This document shows positions 12,955 through 30,480 of a stretch of 33,929 nucleotides of DNA, piece by piece (position 1 is the first letter of the stretch; each line of letters opens with the position of its first letter). Below the pieces are notes generated by a model that was not told the DNA's origin, did not search any database, and worked only from the letters and a program-made list of their open reading frames with translations. Source of the stretch: a virus; IMG/VR virus record IMGVR_UViG_3300030329_003491, positions 1 to 33,929 of that record. One strand, 5' to 3'. The position numbers and the translations under genes were made by a program.

Positions 12955-13101
12955 CTATGAATTAGCTATTTTCTTCTGATCTATTACTTTAACTAATGCT
13001 TCTGACATTGTTATGTCTTTTTCAACTGCATACAGTTTGATTTTTTTAATTAGATCTACAGGAACATTTTTGATTAAAAAATCCTTAGTGTTTTTGTCCA
13101 T
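12955..13101 (-). CDS. Arc-like ribbon-helix-helix DNA-binding protein
   Basis: A 48-residue product starting at ATG 13101, overlapped with the stop of the upstream 40-residue gene (TAATG). The strand DFLIKNVPVDLIKKIKLYA followed by EKDITMSEALVKVIDQ is the classical Arc/MetJ ribbon-helix-helix plan: one strand, helix A, turn, helix B. Such proteins dimerise and bind operators through the strand pair. It probably regulates phage early or lysogeny genes. An upstream in-frame start at 13257 would lie inside a repeat element and is unlikely. Confidence 0.75.
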   Translation of the reverse strand: MDKNTKDFLIKNVPVDLIKKIKLYAVEKDITMSEALVKVIDQKKIANS

Positions 13102-13223
13102 TACGCACCTTCCTTTATTACTATTTTGTTTTTTAAACTTCTGTAAACCGAAGTATTGTGTTTCCAATTGCGTTTTGCATTGGCAAACTTTTTCGATGAA
13201 TTGTGTCGTTTTTTCTTGCCCAT
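13101..13223 (-). CDS. Small highly basic protein
   Basis: A 40-residue product, MGKKKRHNSSKKFANAKRNW onward, with AAGGAGG 8 nt before ATG. It is very rich in Lys, Arg and Asn and probably binds nucleic acid. It is translationally coupled to the Arc-like gene (TAATG). It is preceded by repeat element E1. The family is not recognised. Confidence 0.6.
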   Translation of the reverse strand: MGKKKRHNSSKKFANAKRNWKHNTSVYRSLKNKIVIKEGA

Positions 13224-13247: not shown

Positions 13248-13311
13248 TGGTTTCCATTGACCCCAGCTTGTGGGGTTTCGGTAGGTAACCAACCTACCAT
13301 CATCAGAATGG
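13248..13311 (-). repeat. Structured repeat E1, three-way-junction element
   Basis: Read on the minus strand, CCATT and AATGG can pair as an outer stem, enclosing hairpin P2 (GGTAGG/CCTACC, loop TTGGTTA) and hairpin P3 (ACCCC/GGGGT). AAACC and a ribosome site follow. The same design occurs at 13490, 13776, 15748 and 30001. P2 changes in compensating pairs between copies (GGTAGG/CCTACC, GGTGGA/TCCACC, GGTGGG/CCCACC), which supports base pairing. Here it separates the 52-residue zinc protein gene from the basic protein gene. Confidence 0.8.
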
Positions 13312-13312
13312 G

Positions 13313-13471
13313 TTATTGATGTCTCATTGGCTGTTTCCTTATGCAAAGAATGTCATCACATTCATGGCATTTTGGGTCAGCATTTTCTCGACCGAAAAAC
13401 TTCTTATCGAAATTAATCGATACTACGATGCAATTATTGTTGTTGCAGAAAAATGTAATTTCGTTTGTCAT
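13313..13471 (-). CDS. Small putative zinc-binding protein
   Basis: A 52-residue product with AGGAGG 9 nt before ATG. It has Cys at positions 9, 14, 35, 38 and 43, with a CHEC knuckle, so zinc binding is plausible. It lies between repeat elements E2 (upstream) and E1 (downstream). It is shorter than usual gene-finder limits but the ribosome site, clean stop and context support it. The function is unknown. Confidence 0.65.
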   Translation of the reverse strand: MTNEITFFCNNNNCIVVSINFDKKFFGRENADPKCHECDDILCIRKQPMRHQ

Positions 13472-13489
13472 TTTGGATTACCTCCTATT

Positions 13490-13552
13490 TGGTTTCCATT
13501 TACCCCATTGCTGGGGTTTCGGTGGATCACCAATCCACCATCATCAGAATGG
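13490..13552 (-). repeat. Structured repeat E2
   Basis: This is a copy of the three-way-junction element: outer CCATT/AATGG, P2 GGTGGA/TCCACC with loop TTGGTGA, P3 ACCCC/GGGGT with loop AGCAAT. The P2 pair differs from E1 at two positions, both compensated on the other strand of the stem. It lies between the 67-residue zinc protein gene and the 52-residue gene. Confidence 0.8.
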
Positions 13553-13553
13553 A

Positions 13554-13757
13554 TTATTCTACGATTGTGACATGTTGAAATGGTATTTCATAAACCTCTT
13601 TACAGTCGTTACAACGAAGTAATCCGACAAGTGTTTGTCCGAGCGATCCATTAATTATAAAATCTTCTAATTCTATTTGATTTACATAATAAGTATCTGG
13701 ATGACCTTGATGGCACTTTAGTGGTTTAATAAATAATTGTTTGATTATATTGATCAT
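13554..13757 (-). CDS. Small zinc-ribbon-like protein
   Basis: A 67-residue product with AGGAGG upstream of ATG. Two metal-ligand pairs are visible: LKCHQGHPDTYYV near the start and LLRCNDCKEVYEIPF near the end. The layout suggests a zinc ribbon of the kind found in small phage regulators. It lies between repeat elements E3 and E2. No specific function can be assigned. Confidence 0.65.
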   Translation of the reverse strand: MINIIKQLFIKPLKCHQGHPDTYYVNQIELEDFIINGSLGQTLVGLLRCNDCKEVYEIPFQHVTIVE

Positions 13758-13775
13758 TTGGATTTACCTCCTATT

Positions 13776-13836
13776 TGGTTTCCATTGACCCCTGTTGGGG
13801 TTTCGGTGGGTAACCATCCCACCATCATCAGAATGG
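13776..13836 (-). repeat. Structured repeat E3
   Basis: This is a copy of the three-way-junction element with P2 GGTGGG/CCCACC (loop ATGGTTA) and a shortened P3 ACCCC/GGGGT (loop AACA). It starts 2 nt after the stop of the 116-residue gene and precedes the 67-residue gene. Confidence 0.8.
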
Positions 13837-13837
13837 T

Positions 13838-14188
13838 TTATTTAAAAAGGGCTTGTACTGTATCCAATTCAAATTTATAGTGTCTGTCAGTACCGACTTT
13901 TTCAGCTCGTACTGCCCACTTTTTATTTTCATCTAGAGAAGTGATTTTGTAGGAATGTTTCTTGAATGTAAATGTATCGCCTATGTTGAAATTTAGGTCT
14001 GATGTTTTTTCATTCTGAACAGCTAGTGGAGTAACTGTAAAAGTGAAATCACAACTGCCTTCAAAACGAATCTTTGCCTTTGTAAAACTAGCATCGCAAT
14101 TATATTTTGCAACGAGGTTTTGGATTTCTGTCTGCAATTCTACCGATAATGCTCTTGCTTCTGTTCTGCCTATATCTTTAATTTCCAT
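13838..14188 (-). CDS. Hypothetical phage protein, accessory region
   Basis: A 116-residue product. An N-terminal helix (TEARALSVELQTEIQNLVAKY) is followed by beta strands (AKIRFEGSCDFTFTVTPL) and an SH3-like C-terminal segment (FNIGDTFTFKKHSYKITSLD, then KFELDTVQALF). Phages often carry such small 'ligand-binding' folds of unknown role. It has its own upstream gap with TATA-like sequences, so it may be the first gene of a transcript running left through the three small zinc/basic genes and the Arc-like gene. Confidence 0.6.
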   Translation of the reverse strand: MEIKDIGRTEARALSVELQTEIQNLVAKYNCDASFTKAKIRFEGSCDFTFTVTPLAVQNEKTSDLNFNIGDTFTFKKHSYKITSLDENKKWAVRAEKVGTDRHYKFELDTVQALFK

Positions 14189-14245
14189 TTGGATTTAACT
14201 CCTTATATTTCCTGTTTGTTGATATAGCTATCTTAATTGGTTTTA

Positions 14246-14262
14246 GGTATAACCTATATAAC
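14246..14262 (-). promoter_or_regulatory. Promoter candidate upstream of the 116-residue gene
   Basis: On the minus strand GTTATATAGGTTATACC lies about 60-75 nt before the ATG at 14188. An exact inverted repeat AGGT-ATA-ACCT (14245-14255 on +) overlaps it and could bind a regulator. A similar TATATAAG-type block lies at the same relative place upstream of the genes at 16197 and 30248 (minus). The core promoter elements cannot be fixed without a mapped transcript start. Confidence 0.4.
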
Positions 14263-14365
14263 ATGGATAAGGACTCTGTAGGGCTATTTCCTATAGCATA
14301 TGTTTTTTAAAATAAGCCAGAAAATAGCCCTAATGTGGCTCTGATTTTGCCACAAAAAATCTGTG

Positions 14366-14560
14366 TTATTGTTGCAAATCTGTTGGGTATCTGGATACCA
14401 ATTCTTGCCTTAATTCATCAGATTTTTGTAACACTTCATCCATTGGTGCATCAGTACCTTCAACTGTACAATCGAAAGTAAATACACCTTTAACCGATCT
14501 AGAAATATTGATTCTATATCTATATGACTTTTCTGTTTTTTCTATTATTTTAGTTTCCAA
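14366..14560 (-). CDS. Small hypothetical protein, TTG start
   Basis: A 64-residue product. The TTG at 14560 was chosen because ACAGGAG lies 7 nt upstream; the longer in-frame start at 14629 would translate straight through the 14590-14649 hairpin. The protein is beta-rich (KSYRYRINISRSVKGVFTFD) with a C-terminal helix (DEVLQKSDELRQELVSRYP). The family is not recognised. It follows the DUF932 gene and the hairpin H2. Confidence 0.6.
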   Translation of the reverse strand: METKIIEKTEKSYRYRINISRSVKGVFTFDCTVEGTDAPMDEVLQKSDELRQELVSRYPTDLQQ

Positions 14561-14589
14561 TTGAGATCTCCTGTTTATTTGGTTTTTAA

Positions 14590-14649
14590 AGAGGGCTGTT
14601 TTTTTCAAATGCTGTATATTACTATTCATTTGATTTATTACAGCCCTCT
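14590..14649 (-). terminator. Long hairpin H2 with conserved loop
   Basis: A perfect 10-bp stem AGAGGGCTGT (14590-14599) with ACAGCCCTCT (14640-14649) encloses a 40-nt loop. The loop contains CTGTATATTACTATTCATT (14612-14630), identical to a 19-nt loop segment in hairpin H3 at 28025-28043. It sits between the DUF932 gene and the following small gene. Termination, attenuation or protein binding in the loop are all possible. Confidence 0.6.
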
Positions 14650-14669
14650 ATCTAAAGTGGGTTTCGTAT

Positions 14670-15716
14670 CTAGACCAGAGCAAGGGCTGAATCAAATGCC
14701 CTTGCTTTTACATCTGCTCTGCGGCCATAAAGTGCTGATGGTGAATTATCACTACCCCTTCTGTAGTCCTCTGTTTCAACAATTGCGTTGTAAACCGCCC
14801 AAGGTGTATTTGCTAGATCGGAAAATTCCTGATTGAATATATCAAGTTTTTCTTTGGCTCCAGCTTTATAAGTATCGATTCTGTTTTGCCTTTGTTGATA
14901 TTGTTCCTGTAAAGGTGCACTTTCTTTTAGGATCTTATTCCAAACTGCTTTTGGTAAATCATCCGATGTGAATCCATTTGCCAACCTTAATCTGTTTGGT
15001 TGTGATGCTTTTGGATATGCCGTATCAATGATTGCATTCACTTGTTTTTCTACCAATGTAACTGTTGTCAAACTGTTCATCGCTGTAACCACAGTCTCTT
15101 GTACTTTTTTCATTTTGGTAAAAATATCCAGATAGAACTGTGCATCTGTTTTGATATTGGATGTATGTTTAAGATTTACAGAAACCTTTGCATTTTTCAT
15201 TCCTGTTACCAATGTGTTTTGACATACAACTCTGACAGGTGTAAATGCTATTGTTAAAGCACCGCCACCATCTCTGTGGTCAGTTACTAACCAATACAAC
15301 TGATGATCTTCATTAGCAATTGTTGAGTTTCCAGCATCCAAGGTCATAAAGATTTTTTCACCTTTACCTAAAGCCCCTGCTGTTTCGACTGGAAACTTTT
15401 CAGAGATCGGATTTAACATTGTGCCTAAATCCTTTGCCTGTATTGGTGTCCATTCTTTACCAACTGTTGCTAGGACTCTGTGCTGGTCATCATCTCCGAC
15501 TGGCTCTCGTACAACTGCAAATGAATCAGTTTGTACTTCTGTGCCATCTGGCAATTTTGTGAACATTGGCATGGTTTCAATGTTAAAAAGAATATCTGCC
15601 TTTGCCATTGCATCCAAAGCATTTATCTTTTCATCCTCTGGCATTACCTGTCCTAAACCATGCCATGCTGGTTGCCTTCTTACTAAAGATCTTTCTCCGA
15701 AAATATTTGAAGCCAT
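14670..15716 (-). CDS. DUF932 phage/plasmid-like protein
   Basis: A 348-residue product with CGGAGG 8 nt before ATG. It matches the DUF932 (phage/plasmid-like TIGR03299) family by its opening RQPAWHGLGQVMPED, the VLATVGKEWTPIQAKDL block, DHRDGGGALTIAFTPVRVVCQNTL and the closing STPWAVYNAIVE-like segment with a terminal GRRADVKARAFDSAL. The family is widespread on phages and plasmids; its molecular role is not established. It is the largest gene of the leftward accessory region and is preceded by repeat element E4. Confidence 0.9.
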   Translation of the reverse strand: MASNIFGERSLVRRQPAWHGLGQVMPEDEKINALDAMAKADILFNIETMPMFTKLPDGTEVQTDSFAVVREPVGDDDQHRVLATVGKEWTPIQAKDLGTMLNPISEKFPVETAGALGKGEKIFMTLDAGNSTIANEDHQLYWLVTDHRDGGGALTIAFTPVRVVCQNTLVTGMKNAKVSVNLKHTSNIKTDAQFYLDIFTKMKKVQETVVTAMNSLTTVTLVEKQVNAIIDTAYPKASQPNRLRLANGFTSDDLPKAVWNKILKESAPLQEQYQQRQNRIDTYKAGAKEKLDIFNQEFSDLANTPWAVYNAIVETEDYRRGSDNSPSALYGRRADVKARAFDSALALV

Positions 15717-15747
15717 TTTATTACCTCCGTATTATTTTTTAGTTAAA

Positions 15748-15809
15748 TGGTTTCCATTGACCCCTGTTGGGGGTTTCGGTGGGTAACCATCCCACCATCA
15801 TCAGAATGG
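15748..15809 (-). repeat. Structured repeat E4
   Basis: This is a copy of the three-way-junction element with P2 GGTGGG/CCCACC (loop ATGGTTA). One extra C lengthens the P3 loop relative to E3. It lies between the coiled-coil gene and the DUF932 gene, immediately before the latter's ribosome site region. Confidence 0.8.
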
Positions 15810-15813
15810 ATGA

Positions 15814-16197
15814 TTAACTTATTGCTTCCTCCCTGATGGCTTTAATATCAATATCGGCTTGACCGCTGTTGATATATTCTTCTTCCATAATCATTTCCTC
15901 ATTTGCTTTTTCCCAATCGTTTACTACTTCCAATCCAGCATCTAATGTATCTTTTGCTTTAGTACTGTTGGGATTCCATGGATATGCTTTGTCATATGAA
16001 TTTGTTTCCAGTTGGTCGAGAAGATTTTGAATCATGTAGTAGGTGTAATCTTTTAATCGATTAAATTCAGCCTTTGATTCTTTATTGGTTTCCAATAATT
16101 TTTCATTGGTTGTATTAGCGATCTTTAATTTCTGCTCCAACCGCATAATCTTGTAAGCCTGATTCTCTGGATGTACTTTATCTTGATAATGTTTCAT
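15814..16197 (-). CDS. Coiled-coil hypothetical protein
   Basis: A 127-residue product. The ATG at 16197 was chosen because ACAGGAGG lies 8 nt upstream; an in-frame ATG at 16227 lies before that site. A long heptad-like helix (YKIMRLEQKLKIANTTNEKL, then KAEFNRLKDYTYYMIQNLLD) precedes a charged, acidic C-terminus (DWEKANEEMIMEEEYINSG). It is probably the first gene of the leftward accessory operon, with a promoter-like block at 16247-16263. The function is unknown. Confidence 0.65.
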   Translation of the reverse strand: MKHYQDKVHPENQAYKIMRLEQKLKIANTTNEKLLETNKESKAEFNRLKDYTYYMIQNLLDQLETNSYDKAYPWNPNSTKAKDTLDAGLEVVNDWEKANEEMIMEEEYINSGQADIDIKAIREEAIS

Positions 16198-16246
16198 GTT
16201 TGAAACCTCCTGTTTAGATAAAGTCATTCTAATACTATATATATAA

Positions 16247-16263
16247 AACTTATATAATTAGTT
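16247..16263 (-). promoter_or_regulatory. Leftward promoter candidate, 17-nt repeat copy 1
   Basis: AACTAATTATATAAGTT on the minus strand is identical to 30298-30314. Both lie about 50-65 nt before leftward genes with an AAACAGGAG ribosome site. Shared placement before two separate operons supports a promoter or operator. It could be a TATA-rich promoter of unusual type; no standard -35/-10 pair is clear. Confidence 0.5.
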
Positions 16264-16669: not shown

Positions 16670-17938
16670 TTAAGCATTTATAGCGTTATCCAGAAATTCA
16701 TTAATTTTGTAGATCCAAGGCATTTGGTCATTGATTGTCATGTGTGTATATAAAGCGGTTACATCACTTCCGATGGAATGACCTATCATTTGTTTTTTTA
16801 TTAACTCAGGCATACCGATTTGTGACATGGCCGTAATGCTGGTATGTCGTAATCTATGTAATGATATATTAGGCATCATAATAGATTTGCCACTCGATGC
16901 GGTTACCTCTTGAACCAATCCTAATTTATTGCAAGAAGTATTTATCATTTTGCTTATTGATATAGGGTTATAACAATCACCCCAAGACCTTTTAGCAGCA
17001 ATTAAATCTTTATATTTATCATTTCCAGTCGCCTGTTGTTTCGCTTTATATTCCAATAACAATTGTTTTGTTAAAGGACCAAAAGCAATTTTTCTTTTTG
17101 ATGATTTAGTTTTGCCGATGTCTCTTAATTGTAATTCTTTGATATGGTCGTCTTTTAAATATACTAAAGTATGAGTTGAATCAATGACCCCACAGACTCC
17201 AGTCTTATTCATTTTTGGCAGGTCGAAAAATTCAATATCACTCCATCGTAATCCCATGATCTCCTCACGACGCATTGCAGTATATAAAGCTAGATGCAAA
17301 ACCAAACCAAGATATGTTCCTTTGTAATGTTTAGATATTTGCTTATAGTCTTGATAATTAACAGGTTGCCGTCTGACAGTTGGTTGGCTGGAAGATCTCA
17401 CTAATTTGTTTAATCGTCTAATGATGTCGAGCAGTTTATCTGGATTAGACCATCTCCAATCAAGCATATGGTCTAGGCACATTTTGGCAATGATGAAATA
17501 TGCTTTAACTGTTCTTGGTGCTAATTGTTGTTTCCTCAAATGTTTTAGGAATAATTCAAAATCATAAATTGTTAAACCTTTGACTTTGATATTGCCAAAA
17601 AATGGCCGCAGAACTTTATTTAAATGTCTACGATAAACTGCTTTTGTTATATCTGAAAGACGATTTTCGAAAGTATCATTAATATATTCACTTTCAAATC
17701 GGTCAAAAACATCATTCATTGTTCTTCTGGAATCATCACTATAATCAATTCCATTTTTCAAGTCCTGTTCTTTTTTAAAAGCCAAAACCCTGACTTCTCT
17801 TAATGTTCCAATGAATGTATATTTGCGTTTGTCTCTCGTTCCATCGGCTCTAAAACCATTTGAAATGGTTACTTGCCAATGTGGGCATTTACCTGTTGGA
17901 CAGGTTTTATGTTTTAGGTTTATTGGTTTGGATGGCAT
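16670..17938 (-). CDS. int: Tyrosine integrase
   Basis: A 422-residue product. The start at 17938 was chosen because ACAGGAAC lies 6-8 nt upstream; the longer in-frame start at 17992 lies in the end of the neighbouring gene. It has an N-terminal arm-binding domain with CPTGKCPHWQ, a SAM-like core-binding domain (~75-165), and a catalytic domain with R223 (TAMRREEIMGLRW), H361-x-x-R364 (LHRLRHTS), H387 (MIGHS) and nucleophile Y397 (TALYTHM). All expected catalytic residues are present. It would integrate and, with an excisionase, excise the phage. The adjacent repeat-rich region is the likely attP. Confidence 0.95.
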   Translation of the reverse strand: MPSKPINLKHKTCPTGKCPHWQVTISNGFRADGTRDKRKYTFIGTLREVRVLAFKKEQDLKNGIDYSDDSRRTMNDVFDRFESEYINDTFENRLSDITKAVYRRHLNKVLRPFFGNIKVKGLTIYDFELFLKHLRKQQLAPRTVKAYFIIAKMCLDHMLDWRWSNPDKLLDIIRRLNKLVRSSSQPTVRRQPVNYQDYKQISKHYKGTYLGLVLHLALYTAMRREEIMGLRWSDIEFFDLPKMNKTGVCGVIDSTHTLVYLKDDHIKELQLRDIGKTKSSKRKIAFGPLTKQLLLEYKAKQQATGNDKYKDLIAAKRSWGDCYNPISISKMINTSCNKLGLVQEVTASSGKSIMMPNISLHRLRHTSITAMSQIGMPELIKKQMIGHSIGSDVTALYTHMTINDQMPWIYKINEFLDNAINA

Positions 17939-17975
17939 TGTATGTTCCTGTTTAGTTGGTTTCCAGTAGTCCAGG

Positions 17976-18161
17976 TTATTGCCGATCGGCAATTATCCGA
18001 TCTACAGCTTTCTGTGTCCAATATCCCTTTGCCGTTTTATTCATTGATTTGCGTAATAATATAATATCCTCAGATATTACATAAAGCACACCTTTAGGCA
18101 ATTTTGCATCAGTATGCAATTTGATTCCATGTTGGATTATTAACTTATCTAGAGCGGTCAT
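17976..18161 (-). CDS. Small hypothetical protein upstream of integrase
   Basis: A 61-residue product with GAGGTG before ATG. It is mostly helical and basic (MTALDKLIIQHGIKLHTDAK, then KSMNKTAKGYWTQKAVDRII). The family is not recognised. Its last codons contain the 16-bp perfect palindrome ATTGCCGATCGGCAAT (17978-17993). It lies in one leftward run with the repressor and integrase. Confidence 0.55.
   Translation of the reverse strand: MTALDKLIIQHGIKLHTDAKLPKGVLYVISEDIILLRKSMNKTAKGYWTQKAVDRIIADRQ
17978..17993. promoter_or_regulatory. 16-bp perfect palindrome before integrase
   Basis: ATTGCCGATCGGCAAT is a perfect inverted repeat about 40 nt upstream of the integrase start. It contains the genome-wide over-represented octamer CCGATCGG. 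It could be an operator for integrase control, or it may simply reflect the octamer with flanking symmetry. Confidence 0.4.
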
Positions 18162-24846: not shown

Positions 24847-25374
24847 ATGAAAATTAGAGATCGGATAAAAGAATTACGCAGAGTTAACGCATCTGAATTG
24901 ATGCCCAATCCTAAGAACTGGAGAACACACCCAGTTGGACAACAGGATGCTTTGAAATCGGTATTATCACAAATTGGATATGCAGATGCGGTAATAGCAA
25001 GAGAAACAAAGGATGGCTTGATGTTGATTGATGGGCATTTAAGAGCGGAAACAACCCCTGATGCAACTATTCCTGTATTGGTACTTGATATCAATGAGGA
25101 GGAAGCCGATCTACTGCTAGCAACTTTAGATCCATTGGCAGGGATGGCAGAACCCAACACAGAACTATTAAAACAATTATTGGAAGGGATTGATGATAGT
25201 GATGGCCATATTAGTGCTTTGATCCAAGGTGTTAAAGATATGAATCAGATTATTGATTACAACCCAGAACCACCCACAGATTGGAATGATTATGATGATG
25301 AAACAATAAAGACAGATAAGAAATGTCCTAAATGTGGATATGAATGGAACGAATGGAATGACCCAAATGGCTAA
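24847..25374 (+). CDS. ParB-like protein with C-terminal zinc knuckle
   Basis: A 175-residue product with AAGGAG 8 nt before ATG. Residues ~12-80 are a ParB/sulfiredoxin-like domain: ASELMPNPKNWRTHP, VLSQIGYADAVIARETKDG and LMLIDGHLRAETTPD (GHLR is the signature). A linker helix follows, then DKKCPKCGYEWNEW, a single zinc half-knuckle. Phage ParB-like proteins often sit beside methyltransferases and PP-loop enzymes and may be nucleases or CTP/ATP-dependent switches. It overlaps the next gene by 8 nt (ATGGCTAA), so it is probably functionally linked to it. Confidence 0.85.
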   Translation: MKIRDRIKELRRVNASELMPNPKNWRTHPVGQQDALKSVLSQIGYADAVIARETKDGLMLIDGHLRAETTPDATIPVLVLDINEEEADLLLATLDPLAGMAEPNTELLKQLLEGIDDSDGHISALIQGVKDMNQIIDYNPEPPTDWNDYDDETIKTDKKCPKCGYEWNEWNDPNG

Positions 25375-26239
25375 ACGCAAAACAATAAATATCAGAAGTG
25401 GAATCACGATTGAAATTAGTAGGAAGGTCAGAAGTTATTTAATTGATTTCATAAAATCTTTACCAACAGACAGAATACTAGTGTCAACATCTGGGGGAAT
25501 AGATTCATCTGTTTTAGTTGTAGCTGGTTTAGAAGCTGGTGTTAAGGTGGATATTTCATCATTCACTTTAGACGACAGAAGATCTCGTGATTTTAAAAGT
25601 GCTCGTAAACTGGCTAATTATTTTGGCTTGGAATTTAAACCGATATATCTGCCGACAAATCCAGATGTTATATGCAACCAAGTAATGAGTTATATGAGAG
25701 ATTACAAGGTGCGTAGAAAAACCGATGTTGAGTGTGTTTATCCCATATCAATACAAATGTCTCAATTACCAAAGGGGACTCATTATGTTGGTGGGTTCTG
25801 GGCAGATGGTCATTTTTGTGTTTCCAAGAAAGGCATGATCCATTTTAAACATACAAAGGAATTATACCAGCAAAATAGATATGAATACTTTTTTGTTACC
25901 CCACGACATCAGAGAGTAGTGTTTAAAAATATGGCTGATGCTCATGGACTGTATTATTACGAACCATATTGGGGAAAGCAGATTTTCAATATGATGAGTG
26001 ATATCAATTGGGATCAGGCAAATAAACCTAGACAAAAAGAAATATTGAGATATGCATTTCCTGAATTAGATCCTTTACAAATAAAAACCCATACCAATTT
26101 GCAATTGGGCGATTCTGGAATAGCTGAAACGGTAGGTAATGCTATGAAGAATAAATTTACACCTAAAGCTAAATCGGCTGTATCTGCTTATAATTTTGTC
26201 GTCAAACAAGGATTGCTAAATGACTCTGCAAATAAATAA
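25367..26239 (+). CDS. Asparagine-synthase-like PP-loop ATPase
   Basis: A 290-residue product; ATG 25367 overlaps the ParB-like stop. It shows the PP-loop TSGGIDSS (41-48), a D-R-R after the second strand, VGGFWADGHF (141-150; comparable to the asparagine synthase SGEGADELF block), FKNMADAHGLYYYEPYWGK (comparable to the 'nMa.ahglE.R.PFld' block) and a Lys-containing QKEILRYAFPEL (comparable to 'K..LR.af'). The glutaminase domain is absent. Asparagine synthases adenylate a carboxylate and form an amide. Between a ParB-like gene and a cytosine methyltransferase paired with CmoA, its substrate may be a carboxymethylated DNA base. PAPS-reductase or QueC-like functions are less likely. Confidence 0.8.
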   Translation: MAKRKTINIRSGITIEISRKVRSYLIDFIKSLPTDRILVSTSGGIDSSVLVVAGLEAGVKVDISSFTLDDRRSRDFKSARKLANYFGLEFKPIYLPTNPDVICNQVMSYMRDYKVRRKTDVECVYPISIQMSQLPKGTHYVGGFWADGHFCVSKKGMIHFKHTKELYQQNRYEYFFVTPRHQRVVFKNMADAHGLYYYEPYWGKQIFNMMSDINWDQANKPRQKEILRYAFPELDPLQIKTHTNLQLGDSGIAETVGNAMKNKFTPKAKSAVSAYNFVVKQGLLNDSANK

Positions 26240-27272
26240 ACCAGCTTATAAAGTACCAACAATGGCTGAAATTAAAAAGATTAAGCCGAATGGTTATAAA
26301 GTCGTTAGTACATTTTCTGGTGCTGGCGGTACTTGTCTTGGTTACAAAATGGCAGGCTATGATGTTGTATGGGCATCTGAATTTGTACCAAAAGCGAGAG
26401 AAGTATATGAAATGAATCATGATACATATGTTGATGGGAATGATATTAGAACTGTATCTGGTGAAGATATTTTAAGACGAATCAATATGAAGATCGGTGA
26501 GTTGGATATATTGGAAGGATCTCCTCCATGTGCAAGTTTTTCAACTTCTGGAAAAAGACATAAGCATTGGGGTCAGGTAAAAAGCTATTCAGATAAAAAA
26601 CAAAGGACAGATGATTTATTTGATGAATATATAAGATTAATAAATCAGATAAAACCAAAGGTGTTTGTAGCTGAAAATGTAATGGGATTAGTTAAAGGAA
26701 AAGCAAAAGGATATTTTAAGGACATAATGAAAGGTATGAAAGCATCTGGCTATCAGGTACAGGCAAAAGGATTAGATGCGTCTTGGTTGGGAGTTCCACA
26801 GGCAAGACAAAGAGTGTTTTTCATGGGTGTCCGAAATGATTTAAATATACAGCCGACATATCCGCGGCCACTACCATATCAAATGGTGTTAAAGGATATA
26901 TTACCCAACATTAAAAACAATGAAGGGATTAAGGATGCTATTAGATATTTCGCACCAGCGTATGTCAGAGAATATCACAAAATCAAACAGGGTAAGAAGT
27001 CTGATAAATATATTACATTTAGAAGATCTCATTTTGATAAGCCTTGTTTAACAGTAATGGCAACACATAGTTCAGGACCAGCACATCCAATAGAACCACG
27101 ACATTTTACAATCAATGAATTAAAGCAGATTTGTTCGTTTCCAGAGGACTTCAAATTAATAGGTCGGTGGTCGCAACAGTTTGAACGATTAGGTCGTTCT
27201 GTTCCACCATTTATGGCAAAGGCAATAGCTGAAACAATTCAAAAGGAGGTACTTGATAAATGTCCAAGATAA
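26220..27272 (+). CDS. DNA cytosine-C5 methyltransferase with motif X Asn-to-Arg change
   Basis: A 350-residue product overlapping its neighbours by 20 and 13 nt. All main C5-methyltransferase motifs are present: I FSGAGGTCLG (32-41), IV GSPPCASFS with catalytic C104, VI AENV (151-154), VIII QARQRVFF (194-201), IX around RRSHFDKPCLTVMATHSSG (268-286) and X FERLGRSVPPFMAKAIAETI (321-340). The target-recognition region (~205-265) is short. Motif X normally reads GNSV; here residue 326 is Arg (codon CGT 27195-27197). This residue contacts the SAM methyl/sulfonium region, and Lys/Arg there allows carboxy-SAM use in engineered M.MpeI. Together with the next gene it is the proposed DNA carboxymethyltransferase. 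Confidence 0.93.
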   Translation: MTLQINKPAYKVPTMAEIKKIKPNGYKVVSTFSGAGGTCLGYKMAGYDVVWASEFVPKAREVYEMNHDTYVDGNDIRTVSGEDILRRINMKIGELDILEGSPPCASFSTSGKRHKHWGQVKSYSDKKQRTDDLFDEYIRLINQIKPKVFVAENVMGLVKGKAKGYFKDIMKGMKASGYQVQAKGLDASWLGVPQARQRVFFMGVRNDLNIQPTYPRPLPYQMVLKDILPNIKNNEGIKDAIRYFAPAYVREYHKIKQGKKSDKYITFRRSHFDKPCLTVMATHSSGPAHPIEPRHFTINELKQICSFPEDFKLIGRWSQQFERLGRSVPPFMAKAIAETIQKEVLDKCPR

Positions 27273-27991
27273 AGGATAAAGGTTATGCCCCAGAGAGATG
27301 GGCTTTTGATGAAAAGGTTACTGATGTCTTTGAGGATATGCTTGATAGATCTATACCACAGCATAGGGTGATGAGAGAAACTGTGACAGCTCTTGTTTCA
27401 AATTATATACAACCTAGATTTGATACAGGAGCAATATATGACATCGGATGTTCCAGAGGTGAAATGATCTCATTATTAAATGATAAAATCTCCGATCGGA
27501 ACTTTTCATATAAGGGATTTGAAATAAGCGAACCTATGTATGATGCCGCAGAAAAACGATTTAACAATACTAATAATGTCAGTATTCACAAAAACGATTT
27601 AAAACAAGGATTGCCAGCTTATCCAGAAAGTGTAGTTGCGATTACATCTGTTCTGACATTGATGTTTGTGCCAATGGAATATAGACAGAATTTATTAAGT
27701 GAGATCTATAACCAATTGGAAGATGAAGGCATATTTGTTTTAGTTGAAAAAGTATTAGGAGCTGAAAATGAACTAAATCAGGTGATGTCTGATTCCTATT
27801 ATGAAATGAAAAGAAATAATGGTTATACAGAAGAAGATATAACACGCAAGAAATTATCATTGGAAGGAGTATTGGTACCTGTTACAACAAGTACAAATAT
27901 TGAAATGCTACAGAACGCTGGTTTTCAGAAGATTGATTGTTTCTGGAGATGGATGAATTTTAGTGGATTTGTAGCGATTAAATACGAATAA
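27260..27991 (+). CDS. cmoA-like: CmoA-like carboxy-SAM synthase
   Basis: A 243-residue product, almost the same length as E. coli CmoA (247). Similarity runs end to end: RWAFDEKVTDVFEDMLDRSI with '[20 protein letters not shown]', then IYDIGCSRGE (59-68) with 'VYDLGCSLGA', YEMKRNNGYTEEDITRKKLS with 'HDFKRANGYSELEISQKRS', and the final FWRWMNFSGFVAIK with 'WFQCFNFGSLVALK'. CmoA converts SAM plus prephenate to carboxy-SAM, normally for tRNA cmo5U. E. coli R199, which I recall binding the carboxylate, aligns with K198. No CmoB-like gene is present. It overlaps the cytosine methyltransferase gene by 13 nt, so its product likely feeds that enzyme. Confidence 0.87.
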   Translation: MSKIKDKGYAPERWAFDEKVTDVFEDMLDRSIPQHRVMRETVTALVSNYIQPRFDTGAIYDIGCSRGEMISLLNDKISDRNFSYKGFEISEPMYDAAEKRFNNTNNVSIHKNDLKQGLPAYPESVVAITSVLTLMFVPMEYRQNLLSEIYNQLEDEGIFVLVEKVLGAENELNQVMSDSYYEMKRNNGYTEEDITRKKLSLEGVLVPVTTSTNIEMLQNAGFQKIDCFWRWMNFSGFVAIKYE

Positions 27992-29954: not shown

Positions 29955-30000
29955 GGTCTATTGCGACTAATTTATTATTTTTGCTACTCCTGTTTAATAT

Positions 30001-30062
30001 TGGTTTCCATTTACCCCATTGCTGGGGTTTCGGTAGGTAACCAACCTACCTCGTCAGAATGG
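30001..30062 (-). repeat. Structured repeat E5, orphan copy
   Basis: This is a copy of the three-way-junction element: P2 GGTAGG/CCTACC, P3 ACCCC/GGGGT with loop AGCAAT, outer CCATT/AATGG. The linker between P1 and P2 is altered (CTGACGA). It starts right after the stop of the leftward coiled-coil gene. Unlike the other four copies, no gene follows on the minus strand, although TAAACAGGAG is still present. Confidence 0.8.
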
Positions 30063-30248
30063 TTATATATTGGATTGTTTTAATTGTTCGGTTAATTTTT
30101 TATTTTTGGATTGTTGCTTATCAATAATGTCTACTAATTTTCCAATGACCCTTTCTAGATCTTCCACTTTTTGTTTCATTTCCGAGTAAGCTTCAAAAGC
30201 TACTAGGTCTTCGATTTCCTCTGTTGTCTTGAATGTTGTGTTTTTCAT
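30063..30248 (-). CDS. Small coiled-coil protein
   Basis: A 61-residue product; ATG 30248 has CAGGAG 6 nt upstream. A continuous heptad-like helix spans YSEMKQKVEDLERVIGKLVD and IIDKQQSKNKKLTEQLKQSN. It is the only leftward gene within the rightward terminase-head region, with its own promoter-like block at 30298. It resembles an insertion of accessory-region material (gene plus E element). Its function is unknown. Confidence 0.65.
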   Translation of the reverse strand: MKNTTFKTTEEIEDLVAFEAYSEMKQKVEDLERVIGKLVDIIDKQQSKNKKLTEQLKQSNI

Positions 30249-30297
30249 TTCCAACTCCTGTTTTTAAGATATGACTATCTTATAGGGATATAGGTAA

Positions 30298-30314
30298 AAC
30301 TTATATAATTAGTT
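30298..30314 (-). promoter_or_regulatory. Leftward promoter candidate, 17-nt repeat copy 2
   Basis: AACTAATTATATAAGTT on the minus strand is identical to 16247-16263 and lies the same distance before a leftward gene. GGTTACATAT just upstream recurs in part at ~16276 and ~19164. The 230-bp gap 30255-30484 holds this block and, rightward, TTGACA at 30403-30408, which could be a -35 for the portal operon, though no good -10 is clear. Confidence 0.5.
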
Positions 30315-30445
30315 ATATGTAACCTTTAACATAGATATAAAACAGTTGTTATTTGCAAAATTGTTGCATAATTGCATAAATGTGACTCTGCAAAAACAGA
30401 TGTTGACACAGAGAAAGTTATAGTGTTACAAATTAAAATAACTGA

Positions 30446-30480
30446 TTGTGGTCTTATCGGATGTACCCAAACCGAAGGAG
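30446..30480 (+). promoter_or_regulatory. Shared leader element, copy B (before portal)
   Basis: TTGTGGTCT, CGGATGT-CCC, AACCGAA and GGAG repeat the element at 23993-24028. TCGG/CCGA can pair around the loop. GGAG is the portal gene's ribosome site. Matching leaders before two operons suggest a common control point. Confidence 0.65.

Follow-up and report, generated by a model that had tools for sequence, protein, structure and literature searches.

The DNA considered here is the whole of IMG/VR record IMGVR_UViG_3300030329_003491 (33,929 bases, hereafter the window), which represents a temperate tailed phage with an integrase gene (16670-17992, minus strand) and genes for a tape measure, tail fibre, terminase and portal. 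The leftward genes fall into three short units (A, B and C), and all five copies of a small structured RNA element lie inside these units, on the minus strand. An initial annotation had described the elements as a family of three-way junctions between small genes. All five were found at the positions given there and on that strand, but copy 5 precedes an orphan ribosome site rather than a gene. Read on the minus strand, the five elements are, on the evidence of their sequence and predicted fold, type I hammerhead ribozymes, and we consider it likely that they are self-cleaving and process the leftward transcripts of the phage. This reading rests on sequence, fold potential, covariation and position, from which we infer cleavage in cis.

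The copies share a common layout on the minus strand, CCAUU-CUGAYGA-(U)-stem II-GAAA-CCCC..GGGG-U-H-AAUGG-AAACC. Stem I is CCAUU/AAUGG and stem III is A+CCCC/GGGG+U, closed by the A15.1-U16.1 pair, with cleavage predicted directly after H17 (GGGGUH^AAUGG). The core nucleotides C3 U4 G5 A6 N7 G8 A9 and G12 A13 A14 are present in five of five copies, as CUGAUGA or CUGACGA plus GAAA. The A15.1-U16.1 pair is likewise found in every copy, and H17 is never G (C, A, C, C and A, in order of copy number). An alignment of the five shows that the core varies only at N7 (U/C), at H17 (C/A) and through one extra U between A9 and stem II, carried by copies 1-4 and absent from copy 5. N7 and H17 are the two core positions where the hammerhead tolerates change. 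The elements are as follows, with distances in nucleotides.

13248..13311, minus strand: hammerhead copy 1 with putative pseudoknot tail; stem I 13307-13311/13254-13258; predicted cut 13259 (H17 = C)/13258; stop codon 6 before the core; start codon 35 past the cut.
13490..13552, minus strand: hammerhead copy 2 with putative pseudoknot tail; predicted cut 13501 (H17 = A)/13500; stop 6 before the core; start 29 past the cut.
13776..13836, minus strand: hammerhead copy 3 with putative pseudoknot tail; predicted cut 13787 (H17 = C)/13786; stop 6 before the core; start 29 past the cut.
15748..15809, minus strand: hammerhead copy 4 with putative pseudoknot tail; predicted cut 15759 (H17 = C)/15758; stop 9 before the core; start of the DUF932 gene 42 past the cut.
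30001..30062, minus strand: hammerhead copy 5, with the exact consensus core CUGACGA and no extra U; predicted cut 30012 (H17 = A)/30011; stop 5 before the core.

Copy 5 is followed by a ribosome-site-like stretch (AGGAG), yet by neither a start codon nor a gene.

A hammerhead-type pattern matched exactly five sites in the window, where 0 were expected from 100 dinucleotide shuffles. Moreover, a covariance model built from the five scored the copies at 98-102 bits and everything else in the window at 20 bits or less. A sixth copy was ruled out, the next covariance-model score (20 bits) falling within an AT-rich stretch. The type I topology, with three helices around the core and stem I open, was obtained in all five minimum free energy (MFE) folds, for which z-scores were modest (-0.7 to -3.1). 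The three-way junction that had been proposed therefore appears in five of five MFE folds, with its stem III corrected to A+CCCC/GGGG+U. The structure is paired in 99% of alignment cells, compared with 27-52% for slid structures. Changes on both sides of a pair were seen in 2 of 21 pairs, both in stem II, and in three cells, whilst stems I and III are invariant among the window copies. Because those two stems never vary there, covariation within the window is weak evidence when taken alone. The covariation put forward in the initial annotation is thus genuine but thin, and it is other phages, together with a relative of the window phage, that supply the decisive cases. A tight pattern search of IMG/VR for the sequence family of the window returned no matches, and the exact family is therefore unique to this record within that collection. 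A loose viral pattern in which stem I was fixed as AATGG returned mostly chance matches, and BLASTN of 12.9-18.0 kb of the window against phage records found no match.

IMG/VR was also scanned with a pattern that fixed the core and a CCCC/GGGG stem III and left stems I and II free. Pairing was counted over 111 non-redundant matches in the fetched loci, 82 of which have both stems. Stem I pairs at four of four positions in 96 of the 111 matches (shuffled mean 15, maximum 24) and stem II pairs in 85 (shuffled mean 22, maximum 33); stem I occurs in 35 sequence variants across the 82. A structural scan for the core plus three stems in all fetched loci identified 117 non-redundant type I hammerheads on 77 contigs, window included, and 0 matches in 2.3 Mb of reversed controls. 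In each window copy, loop II (UGGUU) has the potential to form 4-5 of 5 base pairs with the 3′ tail (AACCA). At least three Watson-Crick pairs are available between loop II and tail in 80/117 ribozymes (swapped tails mean 50, maximum 65), and matching changes are found in other phages, GGCU with AGCC in locus L182 and UUAGUUA with UAACUAA in L236. Judged by these sequences, loop II and the tail can form the stem I/II pseudoknot already known from the work of Perreault et al. (PMC3088659). In L182 a pistol ribozyme (1279-1355, 53.8 bits) sits in one phage operon with four type I hammerheads, and there different ribozyme classes are found in the same role. Extra-U type I hammerheads were also observed in two bacterial contigs that are probably prophages, from a Treponema metagenome-assembled genome (MAG; L266) and a Ruthenibacterium MAG (L268), the latter with additional hammerhead copies ahead of small genes.

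A relative of the window phage was found through an IMG/VR search with the portal protein. This 33-kb contig (L263/L274) has a portal 66% and a terminase 80% identical to those of the window, and its late genes are colinear. It carries a single hammerhead (L263:1092-1145) in a leftward operon, flanked by a gene upstream and an AGGGAGG ribosome site downstream. The stems are CCUGU/ACAGG, GAGGGGGG/CCCCCCUC and ACAC/GUGU, around a consensus core without the extra U, and the element scores 41.7 bits with the covariance model of the five window copies. Homologues that conserved primary sequence and lost pairing had been named as the outcome that would speak against a functional fold; the opposite was found, as L263 keeps the pairing and the core whilst all three stems differ in sequence. 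L263 encodes a homologue of the 52-residue protein of the window (13313..13471; 37% identity, 1e-9) with no ribozyme in front of it. The slot of copy 5 is occupied in the relatives L262 and L263 by other leftward genes, with no hammerhead. Moreover, no type I hammerhead was found in 12 loci encoding relatives of the DUF932 protein (52-55% identity), and the ribozyme is therefore not tied to the DUF932 gene. By sequence comparison, then, hammerheads are common to these phages, yet are not fixed to particular genes.

The genes of the leftward units are arranged around the elements as follows.

~14.2 kb to 12.95 kb, leftward: unit A.
13838..14188, minus strand: 116-residue gene, first of unit A, upstream of copy 3; no family match.
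13554..13757, minus strand: 67-residue gene between copies 3 and 2; no family match.
13313..13471, minus strand: 52-residue gene between copies 2 and 1.
13101..13223, minus strand: 40-residue gene after copy 1; a short gene then extends to 12955.
~16.25 kb to 14.67 kb, leftward: unit B, the 137-residue gene and then the DUF932/TIGR03299 gene.
15814..16227, minus strand: 137-residue gene, first of unit B, upstream of copy 4.
14670..15716, minus strand: gene for a DUF932 / phage-plasmid-like protein (TIGR03299), after copy 4.
30063-30254, leftward: unit C, a lone 63-residue gene amid rightward late genes, upstream of copy 5.

The elements are packed tightly against these genes. With the stops lying 5-9 nucleotides before the core, stem I opens 0-4 nucleotides after the stop codon, and for copies 1-4 the next start follows 29-42 nucleotides past the predicted cut. 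Across phages, 78/113 ribozymes have an upstream stop within 80 nucleotides together with a ribosome site and start within 90 nucleotides, compared with 9% of random positions. Since CTGA always contains TGA, a stop at that position says little in itself, and the stop-codon count was therefore restricted to 25 single-gene cassettes whose start is set by the ribozyme before them. In 9 of these 25 the stop is the UGA of the CUGA core itself, and in 15 of the 16 others it lies 4-13 nucleotides before the core.

Several further features accompany the leftward units. Two promoter/operator-like sequences each have two exact occurrences before them, GATATNNCTATCTTA at 14221-14235 and 30268-30282 and AACTTATATAATTAGTT at 16247-16263 and 30298-30314, and a similar sequence, GATAGACATATCTTA, is present in L262 at the slot of unit C. 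This slot, before the portal gene (29960-30480), holds differing accessory genes, which run leftward in the window, L262 and L263 and rightward in L264. Long inverted repeats, each a possible terminator or protein site, were seen after the DUF932 gene (AGAGGGCTGT..ACAGCCCTCT, 14583-14656) and upstream of unit A (AGGGCTATTT..AAATAGCCCT, 14279-14332). Elsewhere in the window, overlapping plus-strand genes at 25334-27991 encode an Asn-synthase/QueC-like ATP-pyrophosphatase (SGGIDSS motif), a cytosine-C5 DNA methyltransferase and a full-length CmoA-like carboxy-SAM synthase (TIGR00740, 1.6e-47, below the cut-off). They are preceded by a gene (24847-25374) that looks ParB-like by eye and has no Pfam match. 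The 25334-27991 genes are a candidate phage module for hypermodifying cytosine to carboxymethylcytosine, and a paper of 2025 described a cytosine carboxymethyltransferase from a phage (PMC12783734).

The initial annotation had also suggested that the elements might be sites for shuffling gene cassettes. Five phage contigs (L257-L261) show gain, loss and reordering of the genes that lie between hammerheads, as the following gene orders illustrate (letters, genes; slashes, hammerheads).

L261: Z/A/B/C/D/E/G
L258: A/B/C/D/F
L259: A/D/I/C/E/G
L257: Z/J/A/K/D/E/F/G
L260: A/D/C/F

Hammerheads cover 24% of the region in these contigs and coincide with 115 of 146 synteny breakpoints. The breakpoints cannot be counted as independent events, and alignments tend to end at the ribozymes because these resemble one another; the comparison of gene order is free of that bias. 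Past the last hammerhead the contigs are mostly colinear for 6-7 kb. In a second, unrelated group (L163, L202, L218, L228, L237 and L268) homology extends until the first hammerhead and a different gene then follows. That genes flanked by phage hammerheads vary in identity was remarked upon in 2011 (PMC3088659). Swaps at ribozymes are therefore seen in two other phage groups, but none is yet seen for the window phage. The sequences of those other phages support cassette shuffling as a probable consequence of having repeated ribozymes.

A functional RNA fold on the leftward strand, with mRNA processing among its possible jobs, had been proposed from the outset and is supported here. The junction corresponds to a hammerhead core (CUGANGA / GAAA / UH), an identity missing from the initial annotation, and possible processing thereby becomes a specific predicted cleavage site. 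Each ribozyme would cut the leftward transcript in cis during transcription, at GGGGUH^AAUGG. The upstream mRNA would then end a few nucleotides past its stop codon, with two stable hairpins (stems II and III) and a 2′,3′-cyclic phosphate, whilst the downstream mRNA would begin with a 5′-OH and a short context-independent leader (AAUGGAAACC plus the ribosome site). A polycistronic message would in this way be converted into single-gene or two-gene mRNAs whose ends are independent of the upstream sequence. Cutting is also expected of the extra-U copies 1-4, perhaps at a lower rate than that of copy 5.

Some observations weigh against processing by hammerheads. The Rfam 15 models give no hammerhead match in the window, either at the gathering score or at expectation values (E) up to 10, where they return chance matches only, for instance SNORD38 and Xist_exon1. 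No gene lies downstream of copy 5, and copies 1-4 carry an extra core nucleotide of a kind that weakens a viroid hammerhead (PMC11014351). As regards Rfam, its models at the gathering score also report no hammerhead in nine other loci (L133, L140, L163, L176, L182, L186, L239, L225 and L237), each of which carries clear type I hammerheads in the structural scan; the negative in the window therefore reflects the reach of the models. The Rfam result, like the position of the elements just before ribosome sites, would suit a cis-regulatory RNA without ribozyme activity, such as a riboswitch, protein-binding leader or terminator. We regard this as very improbable, given that every position of the catalytic core fits the hammerhead consensus in both sequence and spacing. 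A terminator was ruled out, since the hairpins are not followed by a U-run and nothing resembling a terminator was found at the copies. Since copy 5 lacks a downstream gene, it cannot serve solely to process mRNA for translation; one possibility is that it closes a single-gene unit excised from a larger array. The extra U, found in 4/5 copies, could indicate that these ribozymes cleave slowly or not at all and are retained for their hairpins, which would cap the upstream mRNA at its 3′ end or stop exonucleases; the weakening seen in the viroid would agree with this. However, a nucleotide between A9 and stem II is common, being present in 32/82 viral type I hammerheads with clear stems, and it is U in 30 of the 32, as though selected; moreover, the rest of the core is intact, and a plain hairpin would have no need of that. 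We therefore think it improbable that the copies are hairpin caps. Insertions of 1-2 nucleotides between CUGAnGA and the neighbouring stems occur in known alignments (PMC10085705), so an insertion-free junction of CUGAnGA with stem II is not strictly defining, and in the viroid hammerhead the extra core nucleotide lowers activity without abolishing it (PMC11014351). Given these insertions and the activity kept by the viroid variant, copies 1-4 are probably active variants rather than a new class. The (+) hammerhead of Chrysanthemum chlorotic mottle viroid resembles them in that its core departs from the consensus by one added nucleotide, but the extra base is A where the window has U, and its setting is rolling-circle replication. 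De la Pena and Flores reportedly placed this A, in 2001, at the A9/stem II junction.

Other explanations accept the ribozymes and differ over what they are for. As the upstream stop abuts stem I or sits within the core, a terminating ribosome would cover the 5′ strand of the ribozyme and block cutting. Cleavage would then occur only when the upstream gene is poorly translated, making the ribozyme a sensor and not a constitutive processor. The distances of 5, 6, 6, 6 and 9 nucleotides in the window and the cassettes that stop at, or shortly before, the core UGA are as such gating would predict, but tight packing is also expected of compact phage genomes, and self-cleavage is usually fast relative to rounds of translation; we consider gating by translation unlikely. 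It is somewhat more plausible, though still tentative, that the elements matter mainly as DNA, providing repeated joints for homologous recombination through which small cassettes are added, removed and reordered. A crossover inside a ribozyme would rebuild a complete ribozyme, and any order of cassettes might accordingly give processed mRNAs. The reordering in L257-L261, the breakpoints at their hammerheads and the switch of genes after the first hammerhead in the second group favour such joints. Against this, the breakpoint counts are subject to the alignment bias noted above and the swaps come from phages other than that of the window. Joints in DNA also leave the retention of the catalytic core unexplained, and cleavage must therefore matter too. 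Both ideas could be joined to processing by hammerheads in a broader scheme, which we put forward as a possibility with no great confidence. Phage type I hammerheads would here be the punctuation of modular operons in which genes are self-contained, recombinable cassettes and cleavage is gated by ribosomes terminating in the core. With each ribozyme spanning from the upstream stop codon, or from within it, almost to the next ribosome site, any rearrangement might conceivably yield a properly ended mRNA.

Clustered hammerheads in prophages of Clostridium scindens, Azorhizobium caulinodans and Agrobacterium tumefaciens were already reported in 2011 by Perreault et al., who proposed processing into gene-length mRNAs; self-cleavage of tandem phage hammerheads in comparable positions has been shown in vitro and, in a single instance, in E. 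coli (PMC3088659). Those clusters resemble the present one in having several hammerheads along one operon, variable flanked genes or short blocks and the stem I/II pseudoknot. The window differs in its five paralogous type I copies, four of them with the extra U, and in the stop codon that abuts the ribozyme, whilst the gene swaps at ribozymes come from our comparison of other phages. HHphage, the hammerhead of the haloviruses HF1/HF2, lies 13 nucleotides upstream of a start codon, with a mapped transcript 5′ end near the predicted cut (PMC3088659). It differs from the window copies in having core insertions near C3 and in being single, and it heads an early transcript instead of lying between genes (PMC3088659). 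Other self-cleaving ribozyme classes, among them pistol, twister-sister and hatchet, occupy like intergenic positions in phages (PMC10085705). Their fold and catalytic core differ from those of the hammerhead. In RiboJ-type insulators, a hammerhead before the ribosome site frees the mRNA 5′ end from upstream sequence. These are work-alikes only, having been engineered from a satellite-RNA hammerhead, and we claim no link of descent. Phage hammerhead clusters are therefore known as a kind, and two features appear under-described: in the open-licence literature we did not find a report of a stop codon abutting stem I or forming the core UGA, nor of gene-cassette swaps at hammerheads.

Many phage type I hammerheads escape Rfam 15, and a simple search for core plus stems recovers them. 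With five paralogous copies in a 34-kb genome, one having a consensus core and four the extra U, the window phage is a compact test system for processing, insulation and translation gating, and the tightly fixed stop codon and ribosome site that flank the ribozymes are part of that value. The reason for the locations of phage ribozymes was called unknown in a 2023 paper (PMC10085705). An evolutionary rationale for ribozyme arrays is suggested by the gene swaps seen in two further phage groups.

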